DNA of 40,264 nucleotides from Sphingomonas sp. (GTDB taxonomy: Bacteria; Pseudomonadota; Alphaproteobacteria; Sphingomonadales; Sphingomonadaceae), in NCBI GenBank assembly GCA_025935515.1, contig JAICVC010000003.1, forward strand, positions 1-40,264. Reading direction: 5' to 3'. Both the position numbers and the translations under genes were made by a program. Under the pieces are notes generated by a model. The model saw only the letters and a program-made list of their open reading frames with translations, was not told the DNA's origin and made no database searches. Shown piece by piece: positions 18,412 through 32,185 of the stretch (position 1 is its first letter; the number at the start of each line of letters is the position of its first letter).

Positions 18412-18930
18412 ATGTCGGACGTACGGGTCTTCGAGCGGGCATCACCTTCCTTCGCGGCGGGCCTCGCGCAGCGAGGACACCACATCGTCTATCGCGCCAA
18501 TGCGGAAAACCATTGCCCCGGGTGCGGCCGCTCGCACTGGTATATCGGGCGAGTGAGCGCCGAATGCGGTTTCTGCGGCACCGCGGTTCCGCTCGCCGAG
18601 GCGCGGCACGATGACGCGCCCTCGCCGGCTCCCCGTCCTCGCACCACCTCGTCGGCCGACCAGCGCCAGCACCCGCGCATGCCCGCCAGGGGACGCAAGC
18701 TCCAGCTGTTGATCGAGGGCTCGCCGGCCAGCTTCGCGCTGCAGAACATTTCCGAAGGCGGCGCGATGGGCAGCAACGCCGCCGACCTCGCTCCAGGCGC
18801 CAAGGTCCATGTCCGCTTCGAGGGCGGGCTCCTGGTTCCGGCCGTCGTCAAGTGGGCCGAGGACGGAATGGTCGGCCTGGCCTTCATCACGCCGGTGATG
18901 CTCGACCGTTCGAGGAAGAGCGCGAACTAG
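18412..18930 (+). CDS. PilZ-domain protein with N-terminal zinc ribbon
   Basis: Start at ATG 18412, with GGAG 6 bases upstream (the TTG four codons earlier is less likely). The 172-residue protein has an N-terminal CPGCGRSHWYIGRVSAECGFC segment, i.e. CxxC-x13-CxxC, a probable zinc ribbon (Cys35, 38, 52, 55). After a disordered linker rich in Pro/Ser/Thr, a PilZ domain follows with RQHPR (RxxxR, 85-89) and NISEGG (D/NxSxxG, 112-117), the two loops that bind cyclic-di-GMP. The gene is divergent from the GGDEF-EAL gene, about 165 bases apart, suggesting a signal-effector pair. Its output is unknown. It converges on the methyltransferase-like gene, with a 4-base overlap. Confidence 0.9.
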   Translation: MSDVRVFERASPSFAAGLAQRGHHIVYRANAENHCPGCGRSHWYIGRVSAECGFCGTAVPLAEARHDDAPSPAPRPRTTSSADQRQHPRMPARGRKLQLLIEGSPASFALQNISEGGAMGSNAADLAPGAKVHVRFEGGLLVPAVVKWAEDGMVGLAFITPVMLDRSRKSAN

Positions 18931-19679
18931 CGCTTCGGCTTCACGAATTTCAGCGCGTACTGGTCCGTCTTGCCGCGGATCGACGGGTCGAAGATCGGCT
19001 TTGAATGGTCGTCACCCGAGCGACGCAGGAATTTTCCTTCTGCGGCGAGCCTGAAGCCGGCTGAAGTCACTTCCTTGACGACTTGGTCGCGATTGATCCG
19101 ATGCAGCCTTTCGATCTGCGGATTCGTCAGACCAGGCGCACCCTGATGGTCGAGGATGAAATAGATCCCGCCGGGCTTCAGCGCCTTGTAAACCGCGCGG
19201 TTGAAGGCGACCGTGTTGACCCTGCCGTACTTGGCGATCTTCATGTCATGATAGTTCTGGCTGACCCAGGCGAGGTCGAGCGGTCTTGGGAATTTGACCG
19301 TGCCGAACGGCTGGACGTCGATCGACACGTTCTTCCATTTGCCCTCGGCGAGCATGACCTTGTCGTCCCTCGCCGAGTCCGCCCAGGCAGCGTTCTCGAT
19401 TCCATAGATGCGGCCATTTGGACCGACCACGTCGCTCAACATGCGCGTGAAATAGCCGCCTGCGGGATAGAACTCGCCGACAACCATGCCGGGCCGAACG
19501 CCCGAGAAGGCCAGGGTTTCGGCCGGTTTTCGATAAGCGTCCGCCGCGCGGTAGGCCGAGGGCCGCGCCGGATCGGCAACCGCGGCTCTGATTACCGCGG
19601 AAAGATTTCGTGGCGCCGCATCCGCCGCCAGCGGCGCTGTGGCGATTAACGAGACCAGCAGGACTGTGATGCCTCTCAT
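18927..19679 (-). CDS. Exported methyltransferase-fold protein (paralogue A)
   Basis: Start at ATG 19679, with GGAGAG upstream; the ORF-track extension lies over the next gene's 5' region. The precursor (250 residues) has a good signal peptide (MRGITVLLVSLIATAPLAADA). The mature part has a class I SAM-methyltransferase outline: PGMVVGEFYPAGGYFTRMLSDVVGPNGRIYGIE in the motif I region, DLAWVSQNYHDM, ALKPGGIYFILDH and a C-terminal SAGFRLAAEGKFLRRSGDDHSKPIFDPSIRGKTD. A close paralogue lies at 29795-30553; both end with IRGKTD and FVKPKR/FKKPR. Because SAM is not expected outside the cytoplasm, catalytic methylation in the periplasm would be surprising. Function unknown. Confidence 0.85.
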   Translation of the reverse strand: MRGITVLLVSLIATAPLAADAAPRNLSAVIRAAVADPARPSAYRAADAYRKPAETLAFSGVRPGMVVGEFYPAGGYFTRMLSDVVGPNGRIYGIENAAWADSARDDKVMLAEGKWKNVSIDVQPFGTVKFPRPLDLAWVSQNYHDMKIAKYGRVNTVAFNRAVYKALKPGGIYFILDHQGAPGLTNPQIERLHRINRDQVVKEVTSAGFRLAAEGKFLRRSGDDHSKPIFDPSIRGKTDQYALKFVKPKR

Positions 19680-25804: not shown

Positions 25805-25948
25805 AGCCGAACCTCCATCGGTATAACATTGCAGCCCGGAAACGAGCAGAGAGGCTTCGGCGTTCCGCGATAGGCGATGTTTCGACCGGCAGCGGCAGTG
25901 GTTCTGCCAACGGGCAAGCGGCGGTTTCCGGGAAGGGAGTTTTGGGAC

Positions 25949-27175
25949 ATGACGGTGCCAATGCTCATGATGCCCCCACCGATCGCGCGGACGAAGTTCT
26001 GCGACTGGCCGTTCGCGCTCAAGTCGATCGTCGGCTTTTGGCTGTTCTATGCCCTGACCGTTGCCGCCCGCGCGTTCCTCGGCTCCGACCCGTGGACGAT
26101 CCTCGAGAACAAGCTGCTGGTGGTCGGCATCGGCATTGTCATCAATTGCTTCATCTATCTCGCGATCAGTGCCTGGAGCAGCGGCAACAATATCCGTCGC
26201 AAGGCGGTCGTCGCCGGGCTCAGCTGCGCGTTCGGCTCGCTGGCGCTGGGCGGGCTGGTGGTCATGTCCGAGGACTGGATGCGGGAGAGCAAGGAAGAGT
26301 TTCGCTTCCAGGCCCGCGAAGGCTTCACGGTGGTCGAGCAGGGCAACCAGATCCGGATCGAGCGCACGGCGCAGGAGCCGCTCGTCCTGACCATGCCCAA
26401 GGTCCACGAGCTCGATCCGATGAAGCGGGTACGCTACGCGCTGGATTTCGCGGTCACCTGGCTGTTCTTTTTTATCGGCTGGAGCGCTTTCTACATCGCC
26501 AACCAGGCCCAGGCCGAAGCACTCGGCGCGCAGCGAAGGCTTGCCGACGCCGAAAGCGCGGCACAGGCCGCGCAGGTCCGGGCGCTGCGCTACCAGGTCA
26601 ATCCGCACTTCCTGTTCAACACGCTGAACTCGCTCTCGTCGCTGGTCATGACCGGGCGCTCAGATCGGGCCGAGACGATGTTGCTGGCACTTTCGACCTT
26701 CTTCCGGACCAGCCTGTCGCTCGATCCCAGCGCCGACGTCAGCCTGGCCGAGGAAATTGACCTCCAGCGGCTCTATCTCGACATCGAGATGGCGCGGTTC
26801 CCCGATCGCCTGACGGTCGAGATCGACGTTCCGCAGGAGCTCGAGCAGGCCCGGCTTCCAGCGCTGCTGCTGCAGCCGATTGTCGAGAACGCGATCAAAT
26901 ACGGCGTGTCGAAAAGCCGCAAGGCGGTCTTGATCCGGATCGAGGCGCGTCACCTCGACAATCACCGGATGCTGCTCGAAATCAGCAATCGAATGAAGCA
27001 TGGCGGCAAGGAGGAGCTACCGGCCGCCACCCACGAAGGAACCGGCCTCGGCCTCGCCAACGTTTGCCAGCGCCTCGAAGCGCGCTGGGGCAGCCGGGCG
27101 AGCTGCCGTTATGGACCGATGACCAGCGGCGGGTACAAGGTGTCGCTGACTATGCCGGTGGAGACGAATGGCTGA
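25949..27175 (+). CDS. Sensor histidine kinase, LytS/YehU type
   Basis: Start at ATG 25949, since the N-terminus then begins just before the first membrane helix and GGGAG lies upstream; the ORF-track start is 24 codons earlier. The 408-residue protein has four predicted membrane helices (about 27-42, 55-74, 86-105, 163-185) with a soluble loop of about 55 residues between the third and fourth. The His_kinase domain then has RYQVNPHFLFNTLNSLSSL (phospho-His220), LLLQPIVENAIKYGV (N box) and GTGLGLANV (G box). No other sensory domain is seen. It overlaps the response-regulator gene by 8 bases, so the pair is translated together. The stimulus is unknown; membrane-embedded sensing is likely. Confidence 0.92.
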   Translation: MTVPMLMMPPPIARTKFCDWPFALKSIVGFWLFYALTVAARAFLGSDPWTILENKLLVVGIGIVINCFIYLAISAWSSGNNIRRKAVVAGLSCAFGSLALGGLVVMSEDWMRESKEEFRFQAREGFTVVEQGNQIRIERTAQEPLVLTMPKVHELDPMKRVRYALDFAVTWLFFFIGWSAFYIANQAQAEALGAQRRLADAESAAQAAQVRALRYQVNPHFLFNTLNSLSSLVMTGRSDRAETMLLALSTFFRTSLSLDPSADVSLAEEIDLQRLYLDIEMARFPDRLTVEIDVPQELEQARLPALLLQPIVENAIKYGVSKSRKAVLIRIEARHLDNHRMLLEISNRMKHGGKEELPAATHEGTGLGLANVCQRLEARWGSRASCRYGPMTSGGYKVSLTMPVETNG

Positions 27176-27914
27176 AGCTGACCCGCTGCGCGTCCTGATT
27201 GCCGATGATGAACCGCTGGCTGCCGAACGGCTGCAGCTACTGCTGGCTCGCGCCGAGGGCGCGCAGTTGGTGGGCACCGCCAGCGACGGCGACAGCGCGA
27301 TCAACCTGACCGAGGCGCTGCACCCGGACCTGCTGCTGCTCGACATTGCCATGCCCGGGCTCGACGGGATCGGCGTCGCCCGGGCGCTGGCGGCGCAGAA
27401 TCCGTCGCCCGCAGTGGTGTTCGTGACCGCGTTCGACCAGTTCGCCGTGGCTGCCTTCGAGGTCGAGGCCGTCGACTATCTGATGAAGCCGGTCGATCCC
27501 AGCCGGCTGCAGCGCGCGCTTGACCGCACCCGCGCCTATCTCCTGCAGCGGAGCGCGCAGCCGGCGCCGGGCAAGGCGTCACAATGGCTCGAGGAATTCT
27601 GGGCCTCGGACTTGTCGGGCCTGGTCAGGATCGCCGCGCGCGACGTCGACCGGGTCTCGGCGGAACGCGACTATATGCGCCTGCACGTCGGCCGCCGAAG
27701 CTGGCTGATCCATCATTCGATGGCGGCGCTGGAGGAAGGGCTGGATCCCGAGTTGTTTGTCAGGCTTCACCGCTCGGCGATCGTGCGCAAGGATTTCATC
27801 GCCGGATTCACGCGCAATCCTTCAGGACGCTGGATCGCGCGTCTCGCCGACAGCACCGAGCAGCCGGTCGGCCGCCTCTATTCGGACCGCGTCCGAGCGA
27901 TCGCCGGGCGCTAG
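27168..27914 (+). CDS. LytTR-family response regulator
   Basis: A 248-residue protein with an N-terminal receiver domain (IADDE acidic pocket at 11-15, phospho-acceptor Asp in LLLLDIAMPG at 59, conserved VFVTAFDQFA and YLMKPVD) and a C-terminal LytTR DNA-binding domain (about 150-248) with SAERDYMRLHVGRRSWLIHHSMAALEEGL and VRLHRSAIVRKDFI. LytTR regulators bind direct repeats ahead of their targets and control extracellular products in many bacteria. The start overlaps the kinase gene by 8 bases. Targets cannot be identified here. The gene ends 61 bases before the urcA stop on the other strand. Confidence 0.95.
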   Translation: MAEADPLRVLIADDEPLAAERLQLLLARAEGAQLVGTASDGDSAINLTEALHPDLLLLDIAMPGLDGIGVARALAAQNPSPAVVFVTAFDQFAVAAFEVEAVDYLMKPVDPSRLQRALDRTRAYLLQRSAQPAPGKASQWLEEFWASDLSGLVRIAARDVDRVSAERDYMRLHVGRRSWLIHHSMAALEEGLDPELFVRLHRSAIVRKDFIAGFTRNPSGRWIARLADSTEQPVGRLYSDRVRAIAGR

Positions 27915-27975: not shown

Positions 27976-28323
27976 TCACTGGGCGGTGACGATCAGCGCT
28001 GCGGTATCCAGCACCTCGACGCTTGGCCGGCGAGCCTTGCCAATCGCTGCCAGGATCGCCGGCTGAGCGGCGGAGATTGCACCGGAGCGGCATCCGGCCA
28101 CCTCGCGCTCCAAGTTCAGGTCGAGCGGCGCGGCGGTGTCGCAGACCAGCGTCGCAGCATGCGCGACACGACGCTGCAGCTTGCTTTGCCCGAAGTCGGT
28201 CCTGAGATTGAGGTCCGCGTAGGAAACGCGCACCGAATTGCGCTCCGCGGCCTGGCTGACTGTGGGCACCACGAGTGCGGTGCTGATCGCGAGTGCGGCG
28301 AGCGCGGGAATGGTCTTGAACAT
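27976..28323 (-). CDS. urcA: UrcA-family exported protein
   Basis: A 115-residue protein with a signal peptide (MFKTIPALAALAISTALVVPTVSQA), then the UrcA signature: VRVSYADLNLRTDFGQSKLQRRVAHAATLVC, with a later Cys in EVAGCRSGAI that may pair with it. UrcA proteins are small periplasmic proteins of proteobacteria, without a known activity. GGGAGAAGTAGG precedes the ATG. A strong terminator follows, so it is a single gene. A 12-base perfect inverted repeat lies just upstream of the coding region (28341-28388). Confidence 0.88.
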   Translation of the reverse strand: MFKTIPALAALAISTALVVPTVSQAAERNSVRVSYADLNLRTDFGQSKLQRRVAHAATLVCDTAAPLDLNLEREVAGCRSGAISAAQPAILAAIGKARRPSVEVLDTAALIVTAQ

Positions 28324-28514: not shown

Positions 28515-29798
28515 TCAGCTTTCGGGCGGCGATCGGCTGCCGCGGTCGACGATGGTCGCAAGCGCGACATCGTGGGTCACATTACCCACCGTCCGGAAGA
28601 TGTCGGGAATCATCTCGACCGCCACCAGCAGCCCCAGCGGCGCGATCGGAACCCCCAATGCCAATGCGATGGGCGCGATCGAGCTGATATAGCTGACCTC
28701 GCCGGGCAGGCTGACCGCGCCGTAGCTCATTACCGCGCCCACCGCGGTCGCGGCGATCATCTGCGCCATCGTGGGTTGGAGCCCCAGCCAGTGGGCGACG
28801 TAGAACGCCACCGCCGTATTCATCGCCGGACCGGTCGCGCGGAACAATGCAACCGCGATCGGCAGGGTCACGTCGCTGACCTCTTCGCGAATACCCATGT
28901 CACGGGCCCCGTCCAGCATCGCCGGCAGCGAAGCCAGCGACGAGCGCGTCGAGATGGCTACCGTCTGCGGCGCGATCAGGCCGCGCGTAAAGCGACCCAT
29001 GCGCACATCGCCCGCCATCGCCGCCAATGGATAAGCGGCGATCGTCACGAGGATCCCGATCGCGGAGATGATGACGACATAATGGCCAAGCCCCGCGAAG
29101 GCAGCGCCGCCGGCGGCGGACCCGACCGTGAAGGCCAGGGCAAACACGCCGATGGGCGCCACCGCGAGCACCCAGGTGATGACCACCAGCAGCGCTTCGC
29201 CGATCGCGTCGAAGAAATTGACGACGGCCCAGCGCCCGTCCGCGCCGATCCGCGTGAGTGCGAGTGCGAACAACACCGCGAAGACCGTCAACGGCAGGAT
29301 ATCGCCGTTGTTGGCGGCGGCGACGACGTTCGCTGGCACCACCCCCTTGAAGAATTCCATGGCGCCCGGAACCGGCCCCGACGCCGTCTGCTCGACCTTG
29401 CCGAGCGCGCCCTGGAGCAGCTGGGCCGTCTCATGGGAGAGCGGGAAGGTCCGCGTCAGCGCGACCGCGGCAATGGCTCCAAACACCGATGAGGCGGTGC
29501 AGATGATGACGATCCACAGGACAGAGCGCCCGGCGATTCGACCGGCCTGGGCGGCTTCGGCGCTCCTCGCGATGCCGACCACCAGCAGCGCCACCACCAG
29601 CGGGATGACCGTCATCTTCAGGGCGTTGAGCCACAAGGTCCCGACGAATGAAGCAACCGCGAGCGCGTTGTCGCGCACCGCTTCGGCCAGCTCGCCCGCG
29701 AAAATGCCGGCGATCAGCCCGAGGACCAGCGCGGCCAGCGCGTAATAGGCTTGGAAGCTGCTCCCGCCCGCGCGGGACGTGCTCGCGGGAGCGGTCAA
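28515..29798 (-). CDS. Dicarboxylate/amino acid:cation symporter (DAACS family)
   Basis: A 427-residue, highly hydrophobic protein of the sodium/proton:dicarboxylate symporter family. Signatures are WLNALKMTVIPLVVALLVVGIARS near 56-79, the reentrant-loop STRSSLASLPAM (serine-rich hairpin HP1), ATGPAMNTAVAFYVAHWLGL (the TxN segment for sodium and substrate binding) and AVMSYGAVSLPGEVSYISSI (HP2). It imports C4-dicarboxylates or Glu/Asp/Ser; specificity is not clear. The start appears to be TTG 29798, overlapping the upstream methyltransferase-like stop (TTGA), because no ATG or GTG is available before residue 62. It thus seems translationally coupled to that gene. Confidence 0.9.
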   Translation of the reverse strand: MTAPASTSRAGGSSFQAYYALAALVLGLIAGIFAGELAEAVRDNALAVASFVGTLWLNALKMTVIPLVVALLVVGIARSAEAAQAGRIAGRSVLWIVIICTASSVFGAIAAVALTRTFPLSHETAQLLQGALGKVEQTASGPVPGAMEFFKGVVPANVVAAANNGDILPLTVFAVLFALALTRIGADGRWAVVNFFDAIGEALLVVITWVLAVAPIGVFALAFTVGSAAGGAAFAGLGHYVVIISAIGILVTIAAYPLAAMAGDVRMGRFTRGLIAPQTVAISTRSSLASLPAMLDGARDMGIREEVSDVTLPIAVALFRATGPAMNTAVAFYVAHWLGLQPTMAQMIAATAVGAVMSYGAVSLPGEVSYISSIAPIALALGVPIAPLGLLVAVEMIPDIFRTVGNVTHDVALATIVDRGSRSPPES

Positions 29799-30553
29799 CG
29801 CGGCTTCTTGAACTTGAACACTGCGCGGTCGGTCTTGCCCCGGATCTTGGGGTCGAACACCAGCAGGCTATGGTCGTCCGCAGGGTTGCGCAGCATGTCG
29901 CTGGTGCCCACCAGGACGAAGCCCGCGCGCTTGAAGTCCGCCGCGATCACGTTGGGATCGATCCGGTGGAGCTTCTCCACCGTCGCCCGGGTGTCGCTGT
30001 TCGGAGCGGCGACATGGTCGACCACGCCAACGATGCCGCCGGGCTTCATCGCGGCATAGAGCGTCTTCAGCCATGCGTCGGGATCCATCCGGACAATCTT
30101 GCGCTGCGGATTCTCCCAATAGACGTCGTGATAATCGAGGTTGATGAGGGCGAAGTCGAACTTGCCCTTGGGAAGGTCGGGCGCCTCGAACGGGCTCGAG
30201 ATCAGGTTTACGTTGGGGTGCTTGGCGGCAAATTCCTCGAACGGTCCGCGATTCTTGTCGGTCAGGAACTGCGCCGCCTGCCAGACCGTCACATGACCCT
30301 TCGGCCCGACGGCGGGCGCCATGATCTCCGACCAATATTTGTTGGCGCCGAACATATCGAGCACCTGCATTCCCGGCCGAAGACCGAAGAATTGCAGCAA
30401 TTGCGCGGGCTTCCGGCCTTCGTCGAGCTTCACATTGTCCGGCGTACGATTGGCCCTGTCGGCAACCGCGGCGGCGATGGGCGACGGAGCCGGCTTGGCG
30501 GCCGCTGGTGAAGCGAAAGCCAGCGAAATGGCAAAGACTGTGGCGAGGCGCAT
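29795..30553 (-). CDS. Exported methyltransferase-fold protein (paralogue B)
   Basis: Start at ATG 30553, with AAGGGG 8 bases upstream; the TTG at 30559 is rejected. The 252-residue precursor has a signal peptide (MRLATVFAISLAFASPAAA). The mature part follows paralogue A (18927-19679) in every block: PGMQVLDMFGANKYWSEIMAPAVGPKGHV at motif I, FALINLDYHDV, AMKPGGIVGVVDH, and the end HSLLVFDPKIRGKTD..FKFKKPR. The motif I glycines are largely gone, so SAM binding is doubtful. It overlaps the start of the symporter gene, suggesting linked expression. A catalytic role in the periplasm is not expected for a SAM enzyme; it may have kept the fold for another function. Confidence 0.85.
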   Translation of the reverse strand: MRLATVFAISLAFASPAAAKPAPSPIAAAVADRANRTPDNVKLDEGRKPAQLLQFFGLRPGMQVLDMFGANKYWSEIMAPAVGPKGHVTVWQAAQFLTDKNRGPFEEFAAKHPNVNLISSPFEAPDLPKGKFDFALINLDYHDVYWENPQRKIVRMDPDAWLKTLYAAMKPGGIVGVVDHVAAPNSDTRATVEKLHRIDPNVIAADFKRAGFVLVGTSDMLRNPADDHSLLVFDPKIRGKTDRAVFKFKKPR

Positions 30554-30613: not shown

Positions 30614-32185
30614 CTAGGCGGCGCTCGCCTTGGCCATCGCAGCGACCAGCTTCAGCGCCTCGTGCGCCGACAGCGCCGCGCCTTCCTGCCAGAGCCCTTG
30701 GTAGCTCAAATGCTCGCCGGCGAAGACGATCGGACCCTCCGGCTTGAGGAGTTCGGCATATTGCCCCCCGCGTGCCCCATTCCCCCCAGGGCCGTCCGGC
30801 CACAGCGCGCCGACGCCTTCGGAATAAGGCACCAGCCCCCAGCCGACCGACACGCCCTTGGACAGCAGCTTTGAGCGGCCGGGATGCAGGGCCTCGATGG
30901 AATCGCGGCAGACCTCGAGGCGCTGTTCGTTGCCGTAGCCGGCGAATTTCTGCGGATTGTCCCGGTTAGTCCAGCCCGCGACGTAGGCCGCGACCAGAAC
31001 GCCCCTTGCGGCCCCGAAGTTGTTGGACGGATAGATCACATTCTCATTGGCACGATCGGTCCACGCGAGGCCGCCGAAAATGTTGTCGTCGCTCTCCCAG
31101 AAGCGGGGCGCCTCAAAGCCGACCTTCACGCTCGCCAGGTAATTGACCCCCTTGAGGGCCGCCTTCTTGGCGGGCGAGAAATCGTTGGGAATTTTCTCGA
31201 GCAGGTTGGCGCCGAGCGTGCACACGCAATGATCGGCCTCGGTCATTTGGCTCCCGGGACCATGCTCGATGCGTACGCGGTCGCCGGAACGCCGGATGGC
31301 CGTGACCGGCGAGCGCAGCCGCACCGACGGCTTCACCTGCTGGTAAATCGCGTGGGCGATGCGATCCATCCCGCCGACCGGCTGGAGCATGGTCGATTGC
31401 ATGTCCCAGATATGCTCGAACAAGTAGGGCAAGGTGACTGCCGGGGACGGCGCCAGGTCGTTGAAGGCAAGTCGCGGCAAGGGCACCGGCGCCTGGGCAT
31501 AGCCGCCGCCGTCGACGGACCAGCCCGACGATCCTCCCGGTGCATATCGGCCCTTGTCGTCGAGCGAGGCGTACGGAACCAGGAACCGGCGAACGGCGGC
31601 CAATTCGTCCTTTGAGACCTGGCCGTCGAGCGCGTGGGCGTCGATCGCCTTGGCCAGCAGCTCGCCGAGCTGGCCGCGCATGTCCTCGACCATCCGCCGT
31701 TCGCGCTGGACCTTGCCGCCGAAATCCCAGCCCGCGTTGCGGTTGACGTTGACGAAGGTTTCCAGCCCGACGCCGAACTTGCGCGCGTAGCCGAGGATGA
31801 CCCGGTGGGTGGACGGGATGCGCGCCGGGCCGGCGTTGAAATAAAGGCCGGGCGAGAAGCTCGCGCGCTGGTCAGGCCGCCCGGTTTGGACGATGCGGTC
31901 GCCGTTGCGGATCGACCAGGCCCGTCCGCCAATCCGGTCGCGTGCTTCGAGCACCGTCACCCGATAGCCGGCGCGCTTCAGCTCATAGGCGGAAACGAGG
32001 CCTGAAATACCTGCCCCCAGGATGACGACGGACCGGCCGTCGCCGCTTCCTCCCGGAAGCTTGAAATTCTCCGCGCCCGCGGCAGTCGGGATCGCCAAGC
32101 CCAGCGCTTCCATCGCGAGATAGGCTGCGCCGAGCCCGCCAACCGTGCCGATATGTTCGAGCAGCGCCCTCCGCGTCAGTGCCAT
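30614..32185 (-). CDS. Flavin monoamine oxidase / L-amino-acid oxidase-like protein
   Basis: A 523-residue flavoprotein. The first residues, LTRRALLEHIGTVGGLGAAYLAMEALGLAIP, resemble a Tat-type signal with twin Arg and a long hydrophobic stretch, so it may be exported folded with FAD. The FAD-binding VVILGAGISGLVSAYELKRAGYRVTVLEARDRIGGRAWS (about 52-90) is the amine-oxidase dinucleotide fold. Near the C-terminus, GPIVFAGEHLSYQGLWQEGAALSAHEA is the second FAD-binding block. Such enzymes oxidise amines or L-amino acids to imines and hydrogen peroxide. The substrate is unknown. It lies next to, but 60 bases from, the methyltransferase-like gene, on the same strand. Confidence 0.9.
   Translation of the reverse strand: MALTRRALLEHIGTVGGLGAAYLAMEALGLAIPTAAGAENFKLPGGSGDGRSVVILGAGISGLVSAYELKRAGYRVTVLEARDRIGGRAWSIRNGDRIVQTGRPDQRASFSPGLYFNAGPARIPSTHRVILGYARKFGVGLETFVNVNRNAGWDFGGKVQRERRMVEDMRGQLGELLAKAIDAHALDGQVSKDELAAVRRFLVPYASLDDKGRYAPGGSSGWSVDGGGYAQAPVPLPRLAFNDLAPSPAVTLPYLFEHIWDMQSTMLQPVGGMDRIAHAIYQQVKPSVRLRSPVTAIRRSGDRVRIEHGPGSQMTEADHCVCTLGANLLEKIPNDFSPAKKAALKGVNYLASVKVGFEAPRFWESDDNIFGGLAWTDRANENVIYPSNNFGAARGVLVAAYVAGWTNRDNPQKFAGYGNEQRLEVCRDSIEALHPGRSKLLSKGVSVGWGLVPYSEGVGALWPDGPGGNGARGGQYAELLKPEGPIVFAGEHLSYQGLWQEGAALSAHEALKLVAAMAKASAA

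Follow-up and report, generated by a model that had tools for sequence, protein, structure and literature searches.

A predicted exported methyltransferase-fold protein with a remodelled motif I and its probable translational coupling to an SDF/SLC1-type symporter in sphingomonads

Introduction

Exported methyltransferase-like proteins occur in several genera of the Sphingomonadaceae and are of the type annotated as 'predicted methyltransferase', which we take to be COG4798. Our literature searches on COG4798 and on exported or periplasmic methyltransferases returned nothing. The relatives from other genera share 45-55% identity with the protein described here (MT2), carry a signal peptide or a lipobox and the same His, Asp and Arg residues, and are expected to have the same fold. 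Unlike MT2, they keep a D-x-x-[ATPS]-G-x-G-Y loop, stand in other gene contexts and have no symporter partner. Among solved proteins, the methyltransferase 3dh0 of Aquifex aeolicus is the best match of MT2 both in fold (TM 0.76 by target length) and in sequence, but it is 18% identical, has a glycine-containing motif I and is not described as exported. SpnF (4pne) and RdmB (1qzz) are also among the fold matches and constitute a precedent for altered chemistry on a methyltransferase fold; unlike MT2, both are cytoplasmic biosynthetic enzymes, and RdmB was solved with SAM bound. A degenerate motif I may be compatible with SAM binding in other class I proteins.

The second protein of the locus resembles GltPh, GltTk, DctA and GltP, with which it shares the PF00375 domain and residues matching D394, R397, T398 and N401 of TM8. 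It differs from them in TM7, where RATGPAMN stands in place of NMDGT, and in sharing its start codon with the end of an upstream gene for an exported protein. Overlaps of this -4 type have been described as sites of termination-reinitiation (PMC6728339, PMC10666635).

Here we analysed a window of Sphingomonas sp., by which we mean the whole stretch of 40,264 nucleotides, lying on contig 60 of a 1.89 Mb assembly that is 77% complete. Homologues were taken from 61 genomes of the same genus, 201 of the family and 251 of the order, these sets being overlapping. The named relatives are Sphingomonas sediminicola, S. alba, S. cremea, S. hankyongi, S. caseinilyticus, S. arenae and Sphingomicrobium nitratireducens.

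Results

MT2 is encoded at 29795-30553 on the minus strand, from an ATG start to a TGA stop, and has 252 residues. Its N-terminus reads as a Sec signal peptide, MRLATVFAISLAFASPAAA (30497-30553, minus strand), with a hydrophobic core and an AxA motif, and the putative cleavage falls between this segment and the following KP. In agreement, residues 1-20 have low pLDDT in the AlphaFold2 model, and a simple script, not SignalP, found a hydrophobic N-terminal core in all 38 orthologues of the group defined below and a lipobox in 7 of 27 glycine-bearing relatives. From these features we infer that MT2 is exported. The model, built from 14 homologues, has a mean pLDDT of 92.2 and a pTM of 0.86, and Foldseek against the PDB returned class I methyltransferases, with 3dh0 on top (E 3.4e-11); the same entry is a weak phmmer match of the MT2 sequence in the PDB. 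On the strength of this model we are confident that MT2 has a class I Rossmann-like methyltransferase fold, and the matches point to this fold and not to the two-lobed one of substrate-binding proteins. In profile searches MT2 stays below all Pfam and NCBIfam cut-offs. Its orthologues likewise miss every Pfam methyltransferase cut-off, while several glycine-bearing relatives score above that of PCMT or Methyltransf_11. A first exported paralogue is present in the window at 18927-19679 (minus strand); it is 36% identical to MT2 along its whole length (tblastn E 3e-37), and its motif, EFYPAGGYF, retains the glycine at +6. This paralogue belongs to a separate clade with counterparts in four genomes.

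The distinctive feature of MT2 is its motif I, VLDMFGANKYW (residues 64-74; 30332-30364, minus strand), recognized by orthologue alignment as the signature D-x-F-G-x-N-x-Y-W. There is no glycine at four or six residues after the Asp, and MT2 has neither an E/D-x-G-x-G-x-G motif nor the G-x-G of its family. We compared 38 orthologues forming one genus-level sphingomonad group, named FGxN after this loop, with the 27 glycine-bearing relatives at 45-55% identity. All 38 show the loop D-x-[F/A]-G-x-N-x-Y-W, with G69, N71, Y73 and W74 kept throughout, whereas the loop of the 27 relatives is D/E-x-x-[ATPS]-G-x-G-Y-[YWF], with glycine at position 72 (motif +6) in every one and at position 70 in 26. 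Within the FGxN group +4 is variable and the Asn at +5 is invariant; the +6 glycine is substituted in 34 of the 38 sequences, mostly by Leu, Arg, Ala or Lys, and present in the other 4, and none of the 38 has G-x-G with a free residue 71. In a tree computed with the motif columns left out, the change of loop falls on a single branch (SH-aLRT 99), which rules out several origins of the signature: it arose once. The group is under purifying selection, with a pairwise dN/dS of 0.08-0.18 (about 0.1), and this value together with the invariant signature rules out the reading of MT2 as a decaying gene or pseudogene. As the His/Asp/Arg pocket of the family is unchanged, we speak of remodelling and not of decay. 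In this sense, the earlier note on this DNA, which had described a second exported methyltransferase-fold paralogue with an eroded SAM motif devoid of its glycines, agrees with the signal-peptide features, the model, the 36% identical paralogue and the alignment; the term 'eroded' misleads, as the loop forms a new and invariant signature.

Does MT2 still use SAM? It could be an enzyme whose altered loop still accommodates SAM, SAH or a related nucleoside, and a mere operon neighbour of the symporter. Asp66 and the entire downstream pocket are retained, since H142, D143, D179, H180, H196, R197, D226, G239 and T241 are identical between the FGxN and glycine-bearing groups, which also have R36, D44, R47, P49 and R243 in common; the motif II position is mostly Glu, Gln or Asn in both; and a distant glycine-bearing homologue, L069, can occupy the same operon position. 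The loss of the +6 glycine from most FGxN sequences and the variable +4 speak against such an enzyme, and so does its location, as we know of no periplasmic SAM pool in these bacteria. We therefore regard this explanation as rather doubtful, and the loop suggests that MT2 most likely does without canonical SAM use.

Downstream of MT2 lies a gene for an SDF/SLC1-type symporter of 427 residues with a TTG start (28515-29798, minus strand; PF00375, E 2.3e-71), related to aspartate transporters (E 1.5e-35). It had been called a dicarboxylate symporter. The family assignment stands, and the substrate label is uncertain because the residues matching the aspartate site in TM8 of GltPh (Asp394/Arg397/Thr398/Asn401) are conserved while the NMDGT motif of TM7 is replaced by RATGPAMN (28818-28841, minus strand). 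Asp394, Arg397 and Asn401 have roles in the substrate site of GltPh, and NMDGT serves both Na+ and substrate (PMC4900748). By these residues, an amino-acid-like substrate appears at least as likely as a dicarboxylate. The replacement, RxTGPAMN or a close form, is found in 50 of 51 symporter orthologues with or without an MT2 neighbour, so the coupling ion may differ from that of known SDF transporters. The symporter of genome G009 lies in two frames (L021:222-1441), a possible frameshift or assembly error, and two other loci have two consecutive symporter genes.

The MT2 stop and the symporter start overlap in the sequence TTGA (29795-29798, minus strand), and the TTG is the sole start codon of the symporter frame ahead of TM1 in the window, which rules out an independent start there. 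An MT2 orthologue of at least 54% identity stands immediately upstream of the symporter in 30 of the 61 genus genomes, and wherever such an orthologue occurs in the genus the symporter directly follows it (30/30). In 30 of 35 distinct linked pairs the first start codon of the symporter lies within an NTGA overlap (18 TTG, 10 ATG and 2 GTG); of the remaining ones, 1 has GTGA with an interrupted frame and 4 are in another frame. CTGA, in which the start is lost, was found in none of the 35 symporter-linked genes and is the commonest context in unlinked homologues (16/57). Accordingly, A, G or T precedes the TGA stop in 31 of 35 linked genes versus 10 of 57 unlinked ones (Fisher p 1e-11, for sequences that are related to one another), and on these counts the start-preserving overlap exceeds chance.

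Coupled starts have no Shine-Dalgarno sequence above background, their mean anti-Shine-Dalgarno energy being -2.7 kcal/mol versus -3.5 at random positions. Symporters without an MT2-type neighbour do have their own: their uncoupled starts average -6.4 kcal/mol (p 4e-6 against the coupled ones; 18 genomes, the best of 1-3 candidate starts being taken, which favours that group slightly). A short overlap with a conserved start and no strong Shine-Dalgarno of its own is thus what the symporter shows, and these data together form the pattern expected of termination-reinitiation. Since the pair is conserved, the NTGA overlap is kept and the coupled starts are devoid of Shine-Dalgarno sequences, translational coupling of MT2 and the symporter is well supported at the sequence level. 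The earlier note had reported the TTGA overlap and asked whether the pair is conserved and the TTG used. The overlap is as it described, the adjacent pair recurs in the genus, and use of the TTG is favoured by its position before TM1 and by the NTGA pairs, evidence that comes from sequence; neither of the observations it had named as counting against its proposal, a pair that is not conserved and an independent symporter start, was made.

The same data bear on a coincidental operon, in which MT2 would have been inserted between an oxidase gene and the symporter and genome compaction would have preserved the overlap between functionally unrelated genes. The FGxN hosts are Sphingomonas-like bacteria with small genomes, and the genes are lost independently, as such a history would have it. 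However, a start codon survives in spite of exchanges between TTG, ATG and GTG, C never being seen in its first place, the symporter's own Shine-Dalgarno is missing when it is coupled, and a second, distant family member is found in the same coupled position. We consider coincidence very unlikely. This second member, L069:7-762 in genome G045 (6% contamination), is glycine-bearing (DIFGGGGYY) and has the TTGA overlap; it is possibly a gene replacement or a contaminant contig. Its placement within the FGxN clade is disfavoured (AU p 0.025, long branch). As it occupies the coupled position, coupling does not need the FGxN loop.

How tight is the partnership? The earlier note had proposed that MT2 could act as a substrate-binding or regulatory partner of the symporter, and a dedicated extracytoplasmic subunit would explain the strict adjacency where both are present and the conserved -4 overlap. 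Short-overlap pairs are enriched for complex subunits, which in E. coli make up 30% in such gene pairs versus 7% (PMC10666635). The distribution of the genes argues otherwise. The symporter occurs without MT2 in 18 of the 61 genus genomes, among which are several complete assemblies of a single contig. In most of the 18 it lies at the same locus, beside the genes of a LytTR response regulator (27168-27914, plus strand) and a LytS-type histidine kinase (25877-27175, plus strand), which serve here as syntenic anchors beyond the symporter by domain match and synteny. Conversely, five genomes carry the FGxN protein without an adjoining symporter; they form one nested clade, which implies a single loss, and MT2 outlives it under selection (dN/dS 0.08 for the pair L067/L068). 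Across the 61 genomes the two genes show no significant co-occurrence (p 0.18-0.33), so that the constant partnership of a substrate-binding protein with its transporter is not seen, and the independent losses rule out an obligate pair. Moreover, SDF/SLC1 transporters such as GltPh and the EAATs to our knowledge work without a binding protein. The dedicated subunit is thus unlikely, and this part of the earlier proposal is not supported: MT2 is auxiliary to the transporter and not an obligate subunit of it. With the symporter alone in 18 genomes and MT2 alone in one clade, the functional tie may be loose.

Directly upstream of MT2 there is a gene for a flavin amine oxidase (30614-32185, minus strand), whose nearest solved relative is the L-amino acid oxidase 2jae (E 1.7e-71); an N-terminal RR suggests that it is exported by Tat. 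It adjoins MT2 at six further loci and is absent from this position in other genomes. The oxidase also neighbours a glycine-bearing homologue of another genus, and at three loci that lack MT2 it is the immediate neighbour of the symporter. Some relatives, like the window (27976-28323), have a small exported protein of the UrcA family between the symporter and the LytTR regulator. At four loci, of this genus and others, glycine-bearing homologues come immediately after a uvrB-like gene, identified by eye from its N-terminus.

Discussion

We tentatively favour an explanation in which MT2 has an exported, non-SAM role on a small molecule within a module for amino-acid use, with synthesis of the transporter tied to it by reinitiation; we consider it quite possible. 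MT2 belongs to a sphingomonad family of predicted secreted proteins with the class I methyltransferase fold. In the ancestor of the genus-level group, the SAM-binding glycine loop was swapped once for the invariant FGxNxYW, the remaining pocket being kept. On this view the periplasmic ligand or substrate of the protein is most likely a small molecule resembling an amino acid, MT2 being either a binding protein or a non-methylating enzyme, and the module would comprise MT2, the SLC1/SDF-type transporter and often the predicted Tat-exported flavoprotein resembling L-amino acid oxidases. A ribosome ending on MT2 would reinitiate at the overlapping NTG, and transporter output would therefore be tied to MT2 translation. 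A bolder version, in which a methyltransferase fold became the periplasmic partner of an SLC1/SDF-type transporter, feeding or gating it and being made at a ratio to it fixed by translational coupling, seems to us unlikely. If true, it would give an extracytoplasmic accessory to a transporter family that ordinarily works without one.

The FGxN group offers a clean example of a cofactor loop that underwent a single rewriting and became fixed in a predicted exported protein, with close glycine-bearing relatives at hand for comparison, and a transporter whose translation appears linked to such a protein. Exported methyltransferase-like proteins sit where no SAM pool is expected. If MT2 indeed works without SAM, it may provide a clue to the role of the many proteins of this kind that these bacteria export.
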